Shown one piece after another: positions 8,136 through 53,932 of a DNA stretch of 64,000 nucleotides; the stretch's first letter is position 1, and every line of letters starts with the position of its first letter. Made by a program: the position numbers and the translations under genes. The notes under the pieces are model-generated. The model did not search any database and was not told the DNA's origin. It saw nothing but the letters and a program-made list of their open reading frames with translations. The stretch is from NCBI GenBank assembly GCA_018057765.1, contig JAGPDB010000001.1:186001-250000 (forward strand). The letters run 5' to 3'. The stretch is from Acidimicrobiia bacterium. Its GTDB lineage: Bacteria > Actinomycetota > Acidimicrobiia > IMCC26256 > JAGPDB01.

Positions 8136-9902
8136 TTATTGTTTCAAGAATGTAATTGAACGTCCTAGTTTTCCAGCACGACCTGTACGACCTATACGGT
8201 GACAGTAATCTTGATAAATTCGAGGTGTATCGTAATTAATAACGTGACTAACGTTAGGAATATCAATACCACGAGCTGCAACATCAGTAGCAACCAATAC
8301 TTGAACAACGTCATCTTTAAATTTTTTCAAAGCGCGTTGACGGTGTGGTTGAGATTTATCACCATGGATAGATTCTGCACCAATACCCTCGTCATTTAAA
8401 CGATCACATATTTGTTGAACAAAAGATTTTGTTTCACAGAAAATGAGAACTTTATCAACTTCTTTTTCATCAAGAATTTCTAGCAGTTTCTCCCACTTTT
8501 CCATTGTGTTACGAGCATAAGCTACATCTTGTTGGACATTAGCTGAAGTGTCCCCTGTTTTAACAGATACAGTTTCAGGATTGTTCATAACAGTTCCAAG
8601 AAGTTTTTTAATTGGTTCTGTCATTGTCGCAGAAAAACAAAGAGTTTGTCTGTCTTCTGGGATTTGAGCAATAATGAAACGAATATCGTCGATGAAACCC
8701 ATATCTAGCATAAGGTCAACTTCATCTAAAACGAAAGTTGAAACATTTCGTAAATCTAAACAACCTTGTTTGAAAAGGTCTTTCAAACGTCCAGGTGTTC
8801 CGATTACAATGTGCGGATCTCTACGCAAAGCTTGCTTTTGCTTGTGGATTGAAAGACCACCAACACAAAGTGTTGAATAAAGTTTCATACCATGAGAAAA
8901 ACTCTTGAACTCTTGTTCAATTTGTTGAGCAAGTTCGCGAGTAGGTGCAATCACTAAAGAGTTAACACCTTTAGAAGCATTTTGAAATAAAGAATTAATG
9001 ATTGGTAAACAAAATGCTGCAGTTTTACCTGTACCAGTATTTGCAAGACCTAGAACATCTTTGCCTTCAAGTGCAAAATGAATTGTTTGGTCTTGAATAG
9101 GTGTCGGTGTAACATATCCTTTTTTTGTGATATTCTCAGTTAGTTCAGGGACAAAGTCAAAATCAACAAAAGCATGTTTAATTTCATGAGTTTGTTCTGG
9201 AGTTAGTTCTTTAACATCATTCATAAAAAGGTTTGGATCCAAAGCTTTCATTTTTGAACCGTAGCCTCCACGACCTCCGCGTCCACCACCGGAACCACCA
9301 CGACCGCCGCCGCGTCCTCCGCCAAATCCTCCACCTGAACCACCACGGCTTGCGCCACTACGTGATCCACCTGAACGAGCGTTCCTTGATTCTGTACCTC
9401 GAGAATCTCCGCGATGATTTTTGAATCCTCCTGAGTTACGAGGCTTGAAGCCGTCACCATCACGAGATGAACGTTCTGATCTATCACCACGAGGACGGTC
9501 ATCACGTGAACGACCTTCGCTACGCCCACGAGATTCAATGCGATCACGATCACCGCGATATTCATTACGTCCTTCAGAACGTCGATTTTGATCTCTAGCA
9601 CCGCGGTCATCTCCTCGGTTACCACCGCGGGAATCTGAACGTCCTTCACTTCTTCTATTATTCGAAGATTCGCCTGAGCCTCTTGAAGAGCGGTCATTGC
9701 GATCTGAACGTTCTGATCTTTCATTGCGACCTTCGGAGTTCCGGCGCGGATCGCTTCGCCGACCTTCGCTAGATTTATCATTTGATGATACGCGCGTATT
9801 GCGAGCAGAACCTAGACCAATGCCACGACGACTACTTGGTTTTTCTCTTGAATTTCTTTTTTCGCCAGATTTAGGCGTTGAATCATTATTAATATCAGAC
9901 AT
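8136..9902 (-). CDS. DEAD-box-type ATP-dependent RNA helicase with long RG/RS-rich N-terminus
   Basis: The 588-aa protein begins with about 215 residues of Arg/Ser/Gly/Asp-rich, probably disordered RNA-binding sequence, ending in repeated GGRGG units. The helicase core follows: Q-motif-type TPIQDQ, ANTGTGKT (motif I), PTRELAQQ (Ia), GTPGRL (Ib), SATM (III), VATDVAARGID (V) and HRIGRTGRAG (VI). Motif II reads DEVD instead of DEAD. The protein stops about 14 residues after motif VI, so the usual basic tail seems to have moved to the N-terminus. It unwinds RNA, probably in ribosome assembly or RNA decay, and is RhlE/CsdA-like in core. It lies downstream of aceE on the same strand, with a 170-bp gap. 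Confidence 0.93.
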   Translation of the reverse strand: MSDINNDSTPKSGEKRNSREKPSSRRGIGLGSARNTRVSSNDKSSEGRRSDPRRNSEGRNERSERSDRNDRSSRGSGESSNNRRSEGRSDSRGGNRGDDRGARDQNRRSEGRNEYRGDRDRIESRGRSEGRSRDDRPRGDRSERSSRDGDGFKPRNSGGFKNHRGDSRGTESRNARSGGSRSGASRGGSGGGFGGGRGGGRGGSGGGRGGRGGYGSKMKALDPNLFMNDVKELTPEQTHEIKHAFVDFDFVPELTENITKKGYVTPTPIQDQTIHFALEGKDVLGLANTGTGKTAAFCLPIINSLFQNASKGVNSLVIAPTRELAQQIEQEFKSFSHGMKLYSTLCVGGLSIHKQKQALRRDPHIVIGTPGRLKDLFKQGCLDLRNVSTFVLDEVDLMLDMGFIDDIRFIIAQIPEDRQTLCFSATMTEPIKKLLGTVMNNPETVSVKTGDTSANVQQDVAYARNTMEKWEKLLEILDEKEVDKVLIFCETKSFVQQICDRLNDEGIGAESIHGDKSQPHRQRALKKFKDDVVQVLVATDVAARGIDIPNVSHVINYDTPRIYQDYCHRIGRTGRAGKLGRSITFLKQ

Positions 9903-12889: not shown

Positions 12890-12919
12890 TTGCAACTGCT
12901 ATACCCCAGGGGGTATACT
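12890..12919 (+). promoter_or_regulatory. Promoter with perfect CsoR/CstR-type operator
   Basis: TATACCCC-AG-GGGGTATA (12900-12917) is a perfect 8-2-8 inverted repeat of the G/C-tract type bound by CsoR-family repressors. It overlaps a promoter with -35 TTGCAA (12890-12895), an 18-bp spacer and -10 TATACT (12914-12919). Binding would block RNA polymerase. The repressor gene lies two genes downstream, so autoregulation is expected. Confidence 0.8.
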
Positions 12920-12944
12920 AATAGTAATAAATAAGGAGAAATAA

Positions 12945-13115
12945 ATGTGTAGAGCGACAAAGTGTAAGAACTGCAATAAAACAACATGGGCAGGATGTGG
13001 AAATCATATCGATTCTGTAATGCGCAATGTTGCAGAATCAGATAAATGTAAGTGCCAAAGAGATCAGTCTAATAAGAATAGCCACGGATTTTTATCTAAA
13101 ATATTTGGTAAATAA
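12945..13115 (+). CDS. Small Cys-rich protein of the persulfide operon (56 aa)
   Basis: The ATG follows AGGAGA by five bases. The product opens MCRATKCKNCNKTTWAGCG and has seven Cys (positions 2, 7, 10, 18, 35, 37 plus a His at 20), arranged as C-x4-C-x2-C...GCGxH and a later CKC. This suits a zinc knuckle or thiol-reactive site. I recall similar small MCRAxxCxxC proteins in actinobacteria and fungi, but with no known function. It is the first gene after the operator, 32 bp before the repressor gene, so a role in sulfane-sulfur or metal handling is inferred from context only. Confidence 0.8.
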   Translation: MCRATKCKNCNKTTWAGCGNHIDSVMRNVAESDKCKCQRDQSNKNSHGFLSKIFGK

Positions 13116-13147
13116 AATCTAATTACAGTTCCGAGAAAAGAGCCGCG

Positions 13148-13411
13148 ATGACACAAATACCAGGTGATATAACACCACAAATTATTACAAGACTTAAAAA
13201 AGTCCAAGGCCAATTAGGTGGTGTTGTTCGTATGATCGAGGAAGGACGCGACTGCGAAGAACTTGTGACACAACTAGCGGCGGCAAGCAAAGCATTAAAC
13301 CGAGCAGGATTTACAATAGTTTCACAAGGTTTAAAAGAATGTGTAAAATCTGGCGACTCAAGTGGCATCGATGAAAAAAAGCTAGAAAAAATGTTTCTAG
13401 CTTTAGCGTAG
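13148..13411 (+). CDS. CsoR/FrmR-family repressor, CstR-like (persulfide sensor)
   Basis: An 87-aa all-helical DUF156 protein. In CsoR copper sensors the ligands are Cys36, His61 and Cys65. Here Cys36 and Cys65 are kept, but the residue at 61 is Gly (SQGLKEC). Loss of the His with both Cys retained is the CstR pattern, in which the two Cys form di- to tetrasulfide bridges upon reaction with persulfides and release DNA. The operon partners (rhodanese-fused CoA-disulfide reductase) agree. It probably binds the 12900-12917 repeat. Copper sensing is unlikely. Confidence 0.87.
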   Translation: MTQIPGDITPQIITRLKKVQGQLGGVVRMIEEGRDCEELVTQLAAASKALNRAGFTIVSQGLKECVKSGDSSGIDEKKLEKMFLALA

Positions 13412-13424
13412 AAAGTAAAATTTT

Positions 13425-15053
13425 ATGAGAACAATAATTATTGGTGGAGTTGCTGGTGGAATGTCTGCTGCAACAAGATTACGAAGATTAGATGAGAATG
13501 CGGAAATAATAGTTTTCGAAAAGGGAAATGAAGTTTCATTTGCCAACTGTGGACTCCCCTACTTTATTGGCGATGTGATAAAAGACAGAGATGATCTATT
13601 ACTACAAACACCTACAAGCCTAAATGATAGATACAACTTAGATGTACGAGTTAATCATGAAGTTATAAAAATTACTCCTAATGATAGTTCTGTATTGGTA
13701 AAAAATACAAAAACGAATATTGAAGAAAGCTTTGAATACGATAATTTAATATTATCAATGGGAGCATCACCATTTATCCCACCAATCGATGGAATAGAAA
13801 ATGCATTTCCACTCCGCGATATGTATGATGTAGATCGCTTAGTTGTAGCCACCGAACAAGCAGTAATAAATAATGAATCAGCTGTAGTCATTGGCGCAGG
13901 ATTCATAGGTGTTGAAGTTGCAGAAAACCTCAAAAAACGAGGACTGAAAGTAACAATAGTTGAGCTATCCCCTCAAGTACTTCCTCCTCTAGATATAGAG
14001 ATGGCTTCATATGTTGCAGAAGATATCATAAAAAATGGTGTAGAGCTTAGATTAAACACTTCAGTAGAAAAAATTACGAATAAAACTGTCACTCTTTCTA
14101 CTGGAGAAATAATTGAAGCAGGAATGGTTGTAGCAAGTATAGGTGTAAGACCAGAGACAAAATTGGCTAGTGAAGCCGGGCTAGAAATTGGTGAAAGAGG
14201 TGGCGTTGTAATCGATGAATTCCTCAGGACTTCAAGAGCTAACATTTACGCAATAGGTGATATGGTTGAAAAACATGATATCCAAACAGGGAATTCTGTA
14301 TTAATCCCATTAGCAAATCTTGCAAATAAACAAGGTAGACGAGCAGCGGACATCATTGTAGGGAGAAAGCCAAGTTCATCTGCACAAGCATTGGGCACAG
14401 CAATAGTTAAAGTTTTTGACCTAGCAATAGCAACTACAGGAGCCAGCGAGAGATTATTAAAATCACAGGACAGAAATTTTAAAGCTATCCATACCCACCC
14501 TTTGGACCATGCAGGATATTATCCAGGTGCAGAAACTATGCATTTAAAAACACTTTTTGATCCAGAGACAGGAGAATTACTAGGAGCACAAGGTATTGGT
14601 TCATCGAGTGTAGCCAAAAAAATAGATGTTATTGCAACAGCAATATTTGGAAATATAAAAGCTAATGAATTAATAGATCTCGAGTTGGCATATGCCCCAC
14701 CTTACGGATCAGCAAAAGATCCCATAAATATGATCGGCTATATATCTGAAAATATATTGCAAGGAGAAAATACGATTTCGCCAGATCAAATACCATCCGA
14801 ATGCACACTAGTAGACGTACGTACTAAAGAGGAATATTATGAAGGTACAATCCCTGGCGCAATAAATATTCCGTTAGATGAATTACGATCAAGGATTAAT
14901 GAATTCCCAAAGAAGAATGTAGTGGTATTTTGTCAAATGGGTCAACGGGGCCACAATGCAATAAGCATACTTAAGCAATTAAAAATAGAGAGTTCTAATT
15001 TAGATGGTGGTTACGAGACTTGGATGTCTTTTGAAAAAGCAAAAAATATTTAA
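13425..15053 (+). CDS. CoA-disulfide/persulfide reductase fused to rhodanese domain
   Basis: The 542-aa flavoprotein has an N-terminal FAD dinucleotide fold (GGVAGGMSAATRLRR, residues 7-21), the redox Cys42 in SFANCGLPYF, an NAD(P)H fold (VVIGAGFIGVEVAENL) and the dimerisation domain. The final 90 residues form a rhodanese domain with active-site Cys503 in FCQMGQRG. Fusions of this type reduce CoA persulfide/polysulfide (Npsr, CdrA-rhodanese) using NAD(P)H. It starts 14 bp after the CstR-like gene, so the operon probably senses and removes reactive sulfur species. The 3' end overlaps the convergent SDR gene by 4 bp. Confidence 0.93.
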   Translation: MRTIIIGGVAGGMSAATRLRRLDENAEIIVFEKGNEVSFANCGLPYFIGDVIKDRDDLLLQTPTSLNDRYNLDVRVNHEVIKITPNDSSVLVKNTKTNIEESFEYDNLILSMGASPFIPPIDGIENAFPLRDMYDVDRLVVATEQAVINNESAVVIGAGFIGVEVAENLKKRGLKVTIVELSPQVLPPLDIEMASYVAEDIIKNGVELRLNTSVEKITNKTVTLSTGEIIEAGMVVASIGVRPETKLASEAGLEIGERGGVVIDEFLRTSRANIYAIGDMVEKHDIQTGNSVLIPLANLANKQGRRAADIIVGRKPSSSAQALGTAIVKVFDLAIATTGASERLLKSQDRNFKAIHTHPLDHAGYYPGAETMHLKTLFDPETGELLGAQGIGSSSVAKKIDVIATAIFGNIKANELIDLELAYAPPYGSAKDPINMIGYISENILQGENTISPDQIPSECTLVDVRTKEEYYEGTIPGAINIPLDELRSRINEFPKKNVVVFCQMGQRGHNAISILKQLKIESSNLDGGYETWMSFEKAKNI

Positions 15054-50892: not shown

Positions 50893-51399
50893 ATGAACAT
50901 TAAAAAAAGAATACAAGAAGCATTGACACGTCGTCATAAGAACGAAGATGGTTTCACACTCATCGAGCTCTTAGTTGTTATTTTGATCATTGCAATCTTA
51001 GCTGCAGTAGCTATCTTTGCTTTACTATCATCACTTGACTCAGCAAAGAAATCAAATGCAGCAAGTTTAGTAAGCTCAGCACAAGTCTCTCTTGCAAGTA
51101 TCCAAGCTAGCCAAGGAGTAACAGACTATACAGGCATCACATCAAGTGATTTTACTGACTCTGAAAAAGATATTACATTCACATCAGCAATTCCTGTTGC
51201 ACAAAATAGTAATACCGTTGCAGTAGTAAAAACAGCTGGATCACCAATAATTAACTTGTATGCAGCATCAGATAAATTCTGTTTCAAAGCAACAATGCAA
51301 GCTGGCGTTCAAACTACCTACGGCAAATATAATGTTGACTGTACAACTCTTGCTACAGGTTCCACAGTTGGATCAGACAAAAAAGCAGCCTGGAAATAA
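50893..51399 (+). CDS. Type IV pilin (copy 1)
   Basis: The 168-aa prepilin has a 20-residue basic leader ending in Gly20, followed by FTLIELLVVILIIAILAAVAIF with Glu at +5, so a prepilin peptidase site is complete. A single Cys130/Cys150 pair suggests a disulfide-bounded D-loop. The mature domain is Ser/Ala/Thr-rich. It is a major-pilin candidate of a type IVa or G+-type pilus. The gene has its own promoter and terminator. The leader carries AGGAGACC 5 bases before the ATG. Confidence 0.95.
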   Translation: MNIKKRIQEALTRRHKNEDGFTLIELLVVILIIAILAAVAIFALLSSLDSAKKSNAASLVSSAQVSLASIQASQGVTDYTGITSSDFTDSEKDITFTSAIPVAQNSNTVAVVKTAGSPIINLYAASDKFCFKATMQAGVQTTYGKYNVDCTTLATGSTVGSDKKAAWK

Positions 51400-51632: not shown

Positions 51633-52139
51633 ATGAACATTAAAAAAAGAATACAAGAAGCATTGACACGTCGTCATAAGAACGAAGATGGTTTCACACT
51701 CATCGAGCTCTTAGTTGTTATTTTGATCATTGCAATCTTAGCTGCAGTAGCTATCTTTGCTTTACTATCATCACTTGACTCAGCAAAGAAATCAAATGCA
51801 GCAAGTTTAGTAAGCTCAGCACAAGTCTCTCTTGCAAGTATCCAAGCTAGCCAAGGAGTAACAGACTATACAGGCATCACATCAAGTGATTTTACTGACT
51901 CTGAAAAAGATATTACATTCACATCAGCAATTCCTGTTGCACAAAATAGTAATACCGTTGCAGTAGTAAAAACAGCTGGATCACCAATAATTAACTTGTA
52001 TGCAGCATCAGATAAATTCTGTTTCAAAGCAACAATGCAAGCTGGCGTTCAAACTACCTACGGCAAATATAATGTTGACTGTTCAACTCTTGCTACAGGT
52101 TCCACAGTTGGATCAGACAAAAAAGCAGCCTGGAAATAA
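51633..52139 (+). CDS. Type IV pilin (copy 2)
   Basis: This 168-aa prepilin is identical to copy 1 apart from Ser for Thr at residue 151, next to Cys150. The same leader, Gly20 cleavage site and Cys130/Cys150 pair are present. It could increase pilin dosage or serve as a partner for recombination with copy 1. The upstream 130 bp differ from copy 1, so its regulation may differ. The ribosome site AGGAGACC is the same. Confidence 0.95.
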   Translation: MNIKKRIQEALTRRHKNEDGFTLIELLVVILIIAILAAVAIFALLSSLDSAKKSNAASLVSSAQVSLASIQASQGVTDYTGITSSDFTDSEKDITFTSAIPVAQNSNTVAVVKTAGSPIINLYAASDKFCFKATMQAGVQTTYGKYNVDCSTLATGSTVGSDKKAAWK

Positions 52140-52375: not shown

Positions 52376-53932
52376 ATGACATACGTGAACCCAGAAGATA
52401 GCAGCTTCGCAAACAATCAAAATCCGCAACAAATGAATTCACCTTATGCACAACAACCTATAGCCCAGCAAAATTTTCATGATCAATCGATGGGAAATGC
52501 AGATTTTTATCCGGAAAACGGTAATAAAAATACTTACCCAGAAACGCAAGCGACACCAGACACTATTCTTTATGAACAAGCACGTAATGCTGGAATACCA
52601 ATTTTAGATAACCCTAATCACGAATTAGACCCAAGTGCAGTAAGAGCAATTGAACCAGGGCAAGAAGTAATAGGTATTGGATATCACGATGGATTTCTTA
52701 TAGTTGCATGGCCACGTGTTCCACGCCCATACGAAATAGACGATATCCAATCAAAGGCAGGAATGCCAATAAGAATAGCTGTTGCGACTGCGGAAGTATT
52801 CCAAGCTTTATATGAACAAAGCGAATTGTTAAGAAACTCTAGACTTTCATTAGTTGAAGATATTCTAGAGTCAGCATTAAAACATAATGGTTCTGATATA
52901 CACTTAAGCGTTGGTACTCCCCCTCTAACTAGAGTTGGTGGACACCTTGGCCCACTTGATGATTTTGACACACTTTCGACAACAGATCTTCACGAAATTA
53001 TTGAATACTTGGCAGGACCGGAACCACTGCGAGAAGGATTTTCAGGTGACTTAGACCTTGCATGCGTCTATGGTAACTGGAGATTCCGTGCAAATATATT
53101 CCTGCAAAGGGATTCTTTAGCCGTAGCGCTTCGTGTAATCCCTAACAAGATACCTCCACTGAATTCTTTAGGCTTGCCAGAATCATTACTTAAGTTTACA
53201 AAGCTTAGACAAGGTGTTGTATTATTCTGTGGACCAACTGGATCTGGTAAGTCAACATCATTAGCATCTTTAATAAATGTGATTAACCACGAGCGTGATG
53301 AACACATTATTACTATTGAAGATCCTATTGAATATTTACATGCAAGTGTTAAATCACTAATCCACCAGAGAGAAGTTGGAGAAGATACAGAAACTTTTGG
53401 CGCAGCAATGCGTTCAATACTTCGACAAGATCCAGATGTTATTCTTGTTGGAGAGATGCGTGACCTTGAAACTATTTCTTGTGCTTTAACAGCTGCTGAA
53501 ACCGGCCACCTTGTATTTTCAACATTACACTCTACCGACGCTGCTGGAACTATCGATCGTATAATCGATGCATTTCCAAAAAATGAACAAGGACAAATTC
53601 GTATACAACTAGCTAATACTCTAGAGGGCATTGTTTGTCAATCGCTATTGCCTCATGCTACCGACCCTAATAAACGAGTTGTAATTACTGAAGTTATGTT
53701 TGCTAGTAACGCAATCAAAACGTATATACGTGAAGGATCTACACATCAGATTCCAACTGCTTTACAAACTGGAATTGATGATTATGATATGTTACCGCGA
53801 GACCTTTCCTTAGCTCGAGCAGTTGATGCAGGAGATATTACTGATAAAGTTGCAAGGAGTTGGGCAAGAGATTTGCCTAGTTATAGAGAATATTTAAATA
53901 AAGTGCGTCAAATAAAAAATGCGGAAAGATAA
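52376..53932 (+). CDS. pilT: PilT-like type IV pilus retraction ATPase with extended N-terminus
   Basis: The 518-aa protein has a Gln/Asn-rich disordered N-terminus (residues 1-60), a MshEN-like region (about 65-150) and a PilT core from about residue 160. Visible motifs are Walker A GPTGSGKST (286-294), the Asp-box IITIEDPIEYLH, Walker B DVILVGEM (354-361) and the His box LHSTDA. DIHLSVG and DLDLACVYGNWRFRANIF mark the PilT N-domain. It hydrolyses ATP to retract or turn over pili. No pilB, pilC, pilM, pilN or pilD was found in the window, so other parts must be elsewhere. Confidence 0.92.
   Translation: MTYVNPEDSSFANNQNPQQMNSPYAQQPIAQQNFHDQSMGNADFYPENGNKNTYPETQATPDTILYEQARNAGIPILDNPNHELDPSAVRAIEPGQEVIGIGYHDGFLIVAWPRVPRPYEIDDIQSKAGMPIRIAVATAEVFQALYEQSELLRNSRLSLVEDILESALKHNGSDIHLSVGTPPLTRVGGHLGPLDDFDTLSTTDLHEIIEYLAGPEPLREGFSGDLDLACVYGNWRFRANIFLQRDSLAVALRVIPNKIPPLNSLGLPESLLKFTKLRQGVVLFCGPTGSGKSTSLASLINVINHERDEHIITIEDPIEYLHASVKSLIHQREVGEDTETFGAAMRSILRQDPDVILVGEMRDLETISCALTAAETGHLVFSTLHSTDAAGTIDRIIDAFPKNEQGQIRIQLANTLEGIVCQSLLPHATDPNKRVVITEVMFASNAIKTYIREGSTHQIPTALQTGIDDYDMLPRDLSLARAVDAGDITDKVARSWARDLPSYREYLNKVRQIKNAER

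Follow-up and report, generated by a model that had tools for sequence, protein, structure and literature searches.

A three-gene locus in the window analysed here (the whole stretch of DNA, 64,000 nucleotides) is very probably a self-regulated operon that senses and clears reactive sulfur species (RSS), and with which a 56-aa Cys-rich protein is co-induced. Repressor, operator and enzyme all belong to described types. The novelty lies in the small protein, a recurrent microprotein of an unnamed family and probably a component of bacterial sulfur handling that has been overlooked.

The coordinates of the features are collected in Table 1. As a sequence-only reading of this DNA had described, the locus comprises three genes in the same orientation, with products of 56, 87 and 542 aa, separated by gaps of 32 and 13 nt. 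No plus-strand terminator-like sites were found between the three genes, which we infer to be cotranscribed. A good ribosome-binding site (AAGGAG), seen directly in the sequence, precedes the first ATG, and the relatives of the small protein back this start codon, nearly all of them opening with the same Met-Cys.

Table 1. Features of the persulfide-responsive locus, in window coordinates.
Feature	Position	Strand	Basis
Predicted promoter, TTGCAA-N18-TATACT	12890..12919	+	consensus scan, 9/12
Predicted CstR-type operator, TATACCCC-AG-GGGGTATA	12900..12917	no strand	perfect inverted repeat; recurs before homologues
Gene for 56-aa Cys-rich protein, unnamed actinobacterial family	12945..13115	+	23-member alignment
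Gene for CstR-type CsoR-family repressor, 87 aa	13148..13411	+	PF02583, E 5e-22; C36, G61, C65
Gene for CoA-disulfide/CoA-persulfide reductase with C-terminal rhodanese, 542 aa	13425..15053	+	Pfam; 8a56 alignment

The same reading had placed an operator across the spacer and -10 box of the promoter, and this is borne out: a perfect inverted repeat, with two arms of 8 nt around a 2-nt spacer, lies 27 nt upstream of the small gene and spans the promoter spacer plus four bases of the -10. Symmetry by itself is not rare, with perfect 8-nt arms around a loop of at most 6 nt occurring 28 times in the window (35.7% GC); the operator stands above chance because the same sequence recurs before homologous genes. 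A pattern search of its own genome (1.76 Mb) found no other operator site with fewer than three mismatches. Across operator-bearing promoters, window included, the right arm of the operator forms the -10 TAxxxT in 15 of 30, and in several relatives TTGACA precedes the operator, which is the layout of the window promoter. We regard the promoter itself as plausible, because its hexamers match just 9 of 12 consensus positions and are equally common in shuffled sequence (27 promoter-like matches across the region vs 23.7 in shuffles, s.d. 4.8, no clear excess). Of the earlier description of it as the only promoter, the presence of a plausible promoter stands and its sole status is doubtful, since a second promoter-like match, at 10/12, lies within the repressor gene at 13321-13349.

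Two other parts of the window are of separate interest. Two type IV pilin-like genes in tandem (50893-51399 and 51633-52139, both +, 740 nt apart), almost the same in sequence, each encode 168 aa (GFTLIELLVVILIIAILAAVAI) and each have the same strong hairpin (AAGACGGACCTTCTAAGGTCCGTCTT) behind them. They are a recent gene duplication, and a PilT-like ATPase gene lies downstream of the pair at 52376. A DEAD-box helicase gene (8136-9902, minus strand) has a long, repetitive, RS/RG-rich N-terminal part (9233-9781) that opens several spurious frames.

The repressor falls in the CsoR/RcnR (DUF156) fold family, and its closest solved relative, the best of ten PDB matches, is 7mq1/7mq2 (E 1e-11), a protein deposited under the molecule name ‘copper-sensing repressor csoR’, although PMC9774590 names 7MQ2 as CstR. 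The fingerprint of Cu(I)-CsoR is Cys36-His61-Cys65 (PMC4235346). A residue check confirmed the Cys36, Gly61 and Cys65 previously read from the sequence: both sensing Cys are kept and the Cys-His-Cys copper site of CsoR is lost through replacement of the ligand His61 by Gly. An operator with C/G runs lies in the repressor's own promoter and the next gene, for the CoADR-rhodanese, is of the persulfide-handling type, as expected of a CstR. The same genome encodes a separate CsoR-family member that has Cys-His-Cys, adjoined by a 712-aa frame which by eye resembles a P-type ATPase.

The operator also separates the two kinds of repressor. Among repressor loci from relatives, ten of each kind and with the copper loci of this genome and its congener excluded from the Cys-His-Cys (CHC) group, a site resembling TATACCCC-N2-GGGGTATA with at most 4 mismatches was found at 9/10 Cys-Gly-Cys (CGC) loci and 0/10 CHC loci (one-sided Fisher test, about 6e-5, calculated by hand and ignoring kinship). 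On this partition, the operator sequence marks out the His-less subfamily among the sampled loci. It also agrees with ATACCn6GGTAT, the site bound by the sulfane-sulfur repressor of S. coelicolor (PMC7533328).

The third gene was proposed to encode a rhodanese-fused CoA-disulfide reductase, a description upheld by its Pfam domains (Pyr_redox_2, dimerisation and rhodanese) and by its alignment over residues 3-533 with E. faecalis CoAPR (8a56, E 5e-149). The catalytic Cys pair is kept, C42 and C503 aligning with C42 and C508 of 8a56. The protein misses the NCBIfam cut-off of TIGR03385 (CoA-disulfide reductase; 447.6 vs 578.8 bits), as might be expected for the rhodanese-fused branch, and by homology we class it as a CoADR-RHD/CoAPR homologue, not a TIGR03385 equivalog. 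Given the 8a56 and 7mq1/7mq2 relatives and the separate Cys-His-Cys CsoR, the repressor, operator and enzyme together constitute a standard CstR/CoAPR persulfide defence.

By analogy with characterised relatives (PMC9405070, PMC9774590, PMC7533328), both the switch and the enzyme reaction can be outlined. In the resting state, a CstR-type tetramer would sit on the operator and block RNA polymerase at the spacer and -10. A rise in low-molecular-weight persulfides or polysulfide would lead to persulfidation of C36 and C65 from neighbouring protomers, or to polysulfide bridges between them; the modified repressor would release the DNA, allowing expression of all three genes. The reductase would then pass the outer sulfur of CoA persulfide via C42 and the rhodanese C503 to H2S, using NAD(P)H and regenerating free CoA. 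The 56-aa protein, which would be induced together with the repressor and the reductase, may fold round zinc or carry sulfane sulfur on its Cys/His cluster; held near the inner membrane by its basic-hydrophobic tail, it could buffer sulfane sulfur or hand it to the rhodanese.

Two other readings of the repressor need to be weighed against persulfide sensing. That it is a CsoR-type copper sensor, and the operon a copper response, is very improbable. Membership of PF02583 and the general similarity in shape of CsoR-family operators would suit such a sensor, as would the top NCBIfam match, to the copper-sensing RicR, which is far below threshold (42.7 bits vs a cut-off of 175). However, the operon has no copper gene, and we reject the copper-sensor reading on the Gly in place of His61, on the separate Cys-His-Cys CsoR in the genome, and on an operator type that accompanies only His-less repressors in our sample. 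Also unlikely, though less so, is a His-less thiol switch that in the cell answers chiefly to some other electrophile or oxidant, be it sulfite, hypochlorite, or nitrosative or oxidative stress. Dithiol proteins of the CsoR family do have several reaction partners: sulfite, selenite and tellurite all modify S. aureus CstR (PMC5016687), and the T. thermophilus homologue TTHA1953 responds in vitro to Cu(II) and peroxide (PMC10318464). Against this, the best-studied relative of the enzyme is specific for CoA persulfide (PMC9405070), and the neighbours elsewhere are rhodaneses and sulfite exporters. A repressor of the CstR-like, persulfide-sensing type with the copper His lost, as the sequence-only reading had it, is therefore strongly favoured on Gly61, a CstR as the closest solved relative, the adjoining CoAPR homologue with both catalytic Cys, the separate CsoR and the operator partition.

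The product of the first gene is indeed Cys-rich, as had been noted, with six Cys in 56 aa (positions 2, 7, 10, 18, 35 and 37). Its core comprises C2, C7, C10, C18, H21, C35 and C37, and it ends in a basic-hydrophobic tail, GFLSKIFGK. An alignment of 23 members shows M1, C2, C7, C10, K12, T14, W15, A16, G17, C18, G19, H21 and C35 to be invariant. Searches with both the protein and the alignment returned no Pfam or NCBIfam family over the curated cut-off and nothing significant among PDB sequences; other family members gave weak matches to DUF5651 and DUF702 (best E 4e-4), and matches to NK-receptor and LRP1-type proteins were judged to be chance. A literature search for the motif TWAGCG found nothing relevant. 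An AlphaFold2 model built from the 23-member alignment is of medium confidence (pLDDT 76, pTM 0.48) and has two short strands, and a PDB fold search with it gave no match at E <1; the model is neutral with respect to a zinc knuckle. A second, tail-less small protein of 38-39 aa, MCARxTCxxCxKPTWAGCG, is encoded a few hundred nucleotides 3' of the tailed one at five loci in Leucobacter and Microbacteriaceae.

Tails with at least two basic and at least two large hydrophobic residues are present in 73 of the 79 members of at least 50 aa. Many read GF(F/L)xRLFGR, for example GFFARLFGR; the 56-aa protein has HGFLSKIFGK, and family tails are alike in sequence, often closely, to the membrane-targeting tag of E. 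coli MinD, KGFLKRLFGG (PMC5471200). The hydrophobic moment is ordinary (0.36 for the tail of the 56-aa protein, which is modelled at low confidence; family mean 0.44 vs 0.38 in shuffles) and not decisive, and amphipathicity was dropped as proof of a membrane tail.

The named genomes with relatives of the small protein are all actinobacterial (Arthrobacter, Nocardioides, Leucobacter, Corynebacterium, Brevibacterium and others), and the family is present in at least 63 of 396 genomes drawn evenly from the phylum, a figure that may be low as 16 candidates were scored per genome. We compared about 6 kb around the matches for 100 distinct proteins, a sample picked in part via the window protein and including related species, so that the fractions are descriptive. 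A CsoR-family gene lies within about 3 kb of 44/100 members, and all 44 encode proteins without the copper His: 28 are CGC, 10 CAC, 5 CSC and 1 CNC, with no CHC. A rhodanese is near 38/100 members and a CoADR near 16/100. The operator, at no more than 3 mismatches and within 260 nt upstream, precedes 29/100 members, mostly 9-90 nt from the start codon of the small gene; the corresponding counts were 32 in 3784 random 260-nt windows of the same loci (0.8%) and 8 in 10000 shuffled upstream regions, an enrichment over random windows of about 30-fold. Ten of the members with an operator lack a repressor in the stretch retrieved, as would fit control by a regulator encoded elsewhere in the genome. 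Nor is the family restricted to the CstR regulon: within about 3 kb, 37/100 members show no operator and no gene for a CstR, rhodanese or CoADR.

Gene orders around the small gene differ across families of the phylum. In one congener (G001), the trio of small gene, cstR and CoADR occurs twice in the same order, each copy with its own operator; in a second congener (G002), neither the small protein nor the repressor found a match. No constant membrane partner was found, the 82 neighbouring frames being of scattered families among which TauE (3), thioredoxin (3) and CMD (AhpD-like; 4) recur. The recurrence with His-less CsoR genes across the phylum supports the earlier view of the tiny protein as a real part of such systems; its putative role there had been put as sulfur carrier or sensor.

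On Arthrobacter pA58H2, Curtobacterium pC1a and Rhodococcus jostii RHA1 pRHL3, the small gene stands beside a His-less regulator in neighbourhoods that include rhodaneses and an MBL-fold hydrolase, together with a TauE exporter on two of the three (pA58H2 and pC1a). On pRHL3, where the small gene is RHA1_RS51140, annotated as a hypothetical protein, a perfect operator, TATACCCCTAGGGGTATA, lies about 43 nt upstream of it. The small gene is missing from the listed annotation of pA58H2 and pC1a, and one plasmid's pairing has been published with just “a small hypothetical protein” (PMC6305408). Plasmids carrying the family are many among actinobacteria (78 records, 43 from Rhodococcus and 16 from Clavibacter), and the gene is unannotated in 16 of the best 20 plasmid matches.

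The 56-aa protein is most likely a zinc- or sulfane-sulfur-binding accessory that acts near the membrane, and it is the Cys/His pattern alone, the model having no fold match, that suggests zinc. A carrier role is attractive as a proposal because TusA, present in 11 of 14 control genomes, was not found in this genome, which also encodes at least two exporters of the TauE family and three further rhodaneses. We put forward only tentatively the broader idea that the protein founds an undescribed actinobacterial family of CstR-regulated, membrane-tethered zinc/sulfane-sulfur proteins, a mini sulfur carrier that replaces TusA-type carriers and feeds the rhodanese/CoAPR or a dioxygenase. It is about equally conceivable, though doubtful, that the protein is a regulator and not a carrier, such as a zinc-finger partner modulating CstR or RNA polymerase: its small size, first-gene position, finger-like Cys/His spacing and basic tail would all suit this, but it matches no DNA-binding family or fold, and the aromatic-hydrophobic residues of the tail favour contact with membrane or protein. 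That it is a mere passenger in such neighbourhoods is improbable. The 37 members that lack relevant context are what a passenger might leave, yet the operator enrichment, the exclusive proximity of His-less CsoR genes and the reappearance in differing gene orders throughout families of the phylum all speak against it.

Most work on CstR-type persulfide sensing concerns Firmicutes and Streptomyces, and the regulons known so far list enzymes and exporters. Should a conserved Cys-rich microprotein prove a regular member of the regulon across actinobacteria, the described models miss a component, which would raise the question of whether a dedicated small protein buffers or carries sulfane sulfur. 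Such a family is easy to miss, being short, unnamed and often unannotated.

Among the known systems nearest to the locus is the cst-like operon of E. faecalis (CstR, RhdA/RhdB, CoAPR), in which a CstR-type repressor likewise controls a CoADR-rhodanese fusion with the catalytic Cys conserved; that operon has two separate rhodaneses that are absent here, whereas the window operon opens with the 56-aa Cys-rich gene. The S. coelicolor ScCsoR circuit shares an actinobacterial, two-Cys, CsoR-like sulfane-sulfur repressor and an operator of the ATACCn6GGTAT type (PMC7533328). Its sco0620 neighbourhood comprises ScCsoR, a persulfide dioxygenase, a rhodanese and a sulfite exporter, with no small Cys-rich protein among the described parts, and it oxidises persulfide by the dioxygenase, whereas the window operon's enzyme is of the type that reduces CoA persulfide. 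The SUL modules of Antarctic Arthrobacter plasmids (pA8H1, pA40H2 and pA58H2) also pair a CsoR-family regulator with a small hypothetical protein (PMC6305408), which in pA58H2 is of the same family as the 56-aa protein and lies beside operator sites; these modules list the small protein without study and carry a dioxygenase, two rhodaneses, TauE and an MFS transporter, where the window has a CoADR instead. M. tuberculosis CsoR, the Cu(I) sensor, shares the fold family and the two Cys (X and Z positions) with the window repressor, but has the copper ligand His61 at the Y position where the latter has Gly. For the small protein itself, metallothionein-3, a Cys-rich protein that holds sulfane sulfur and zinc together (PMC12618007), offers a working analogy, one of properties without sequence relation or family assignment.
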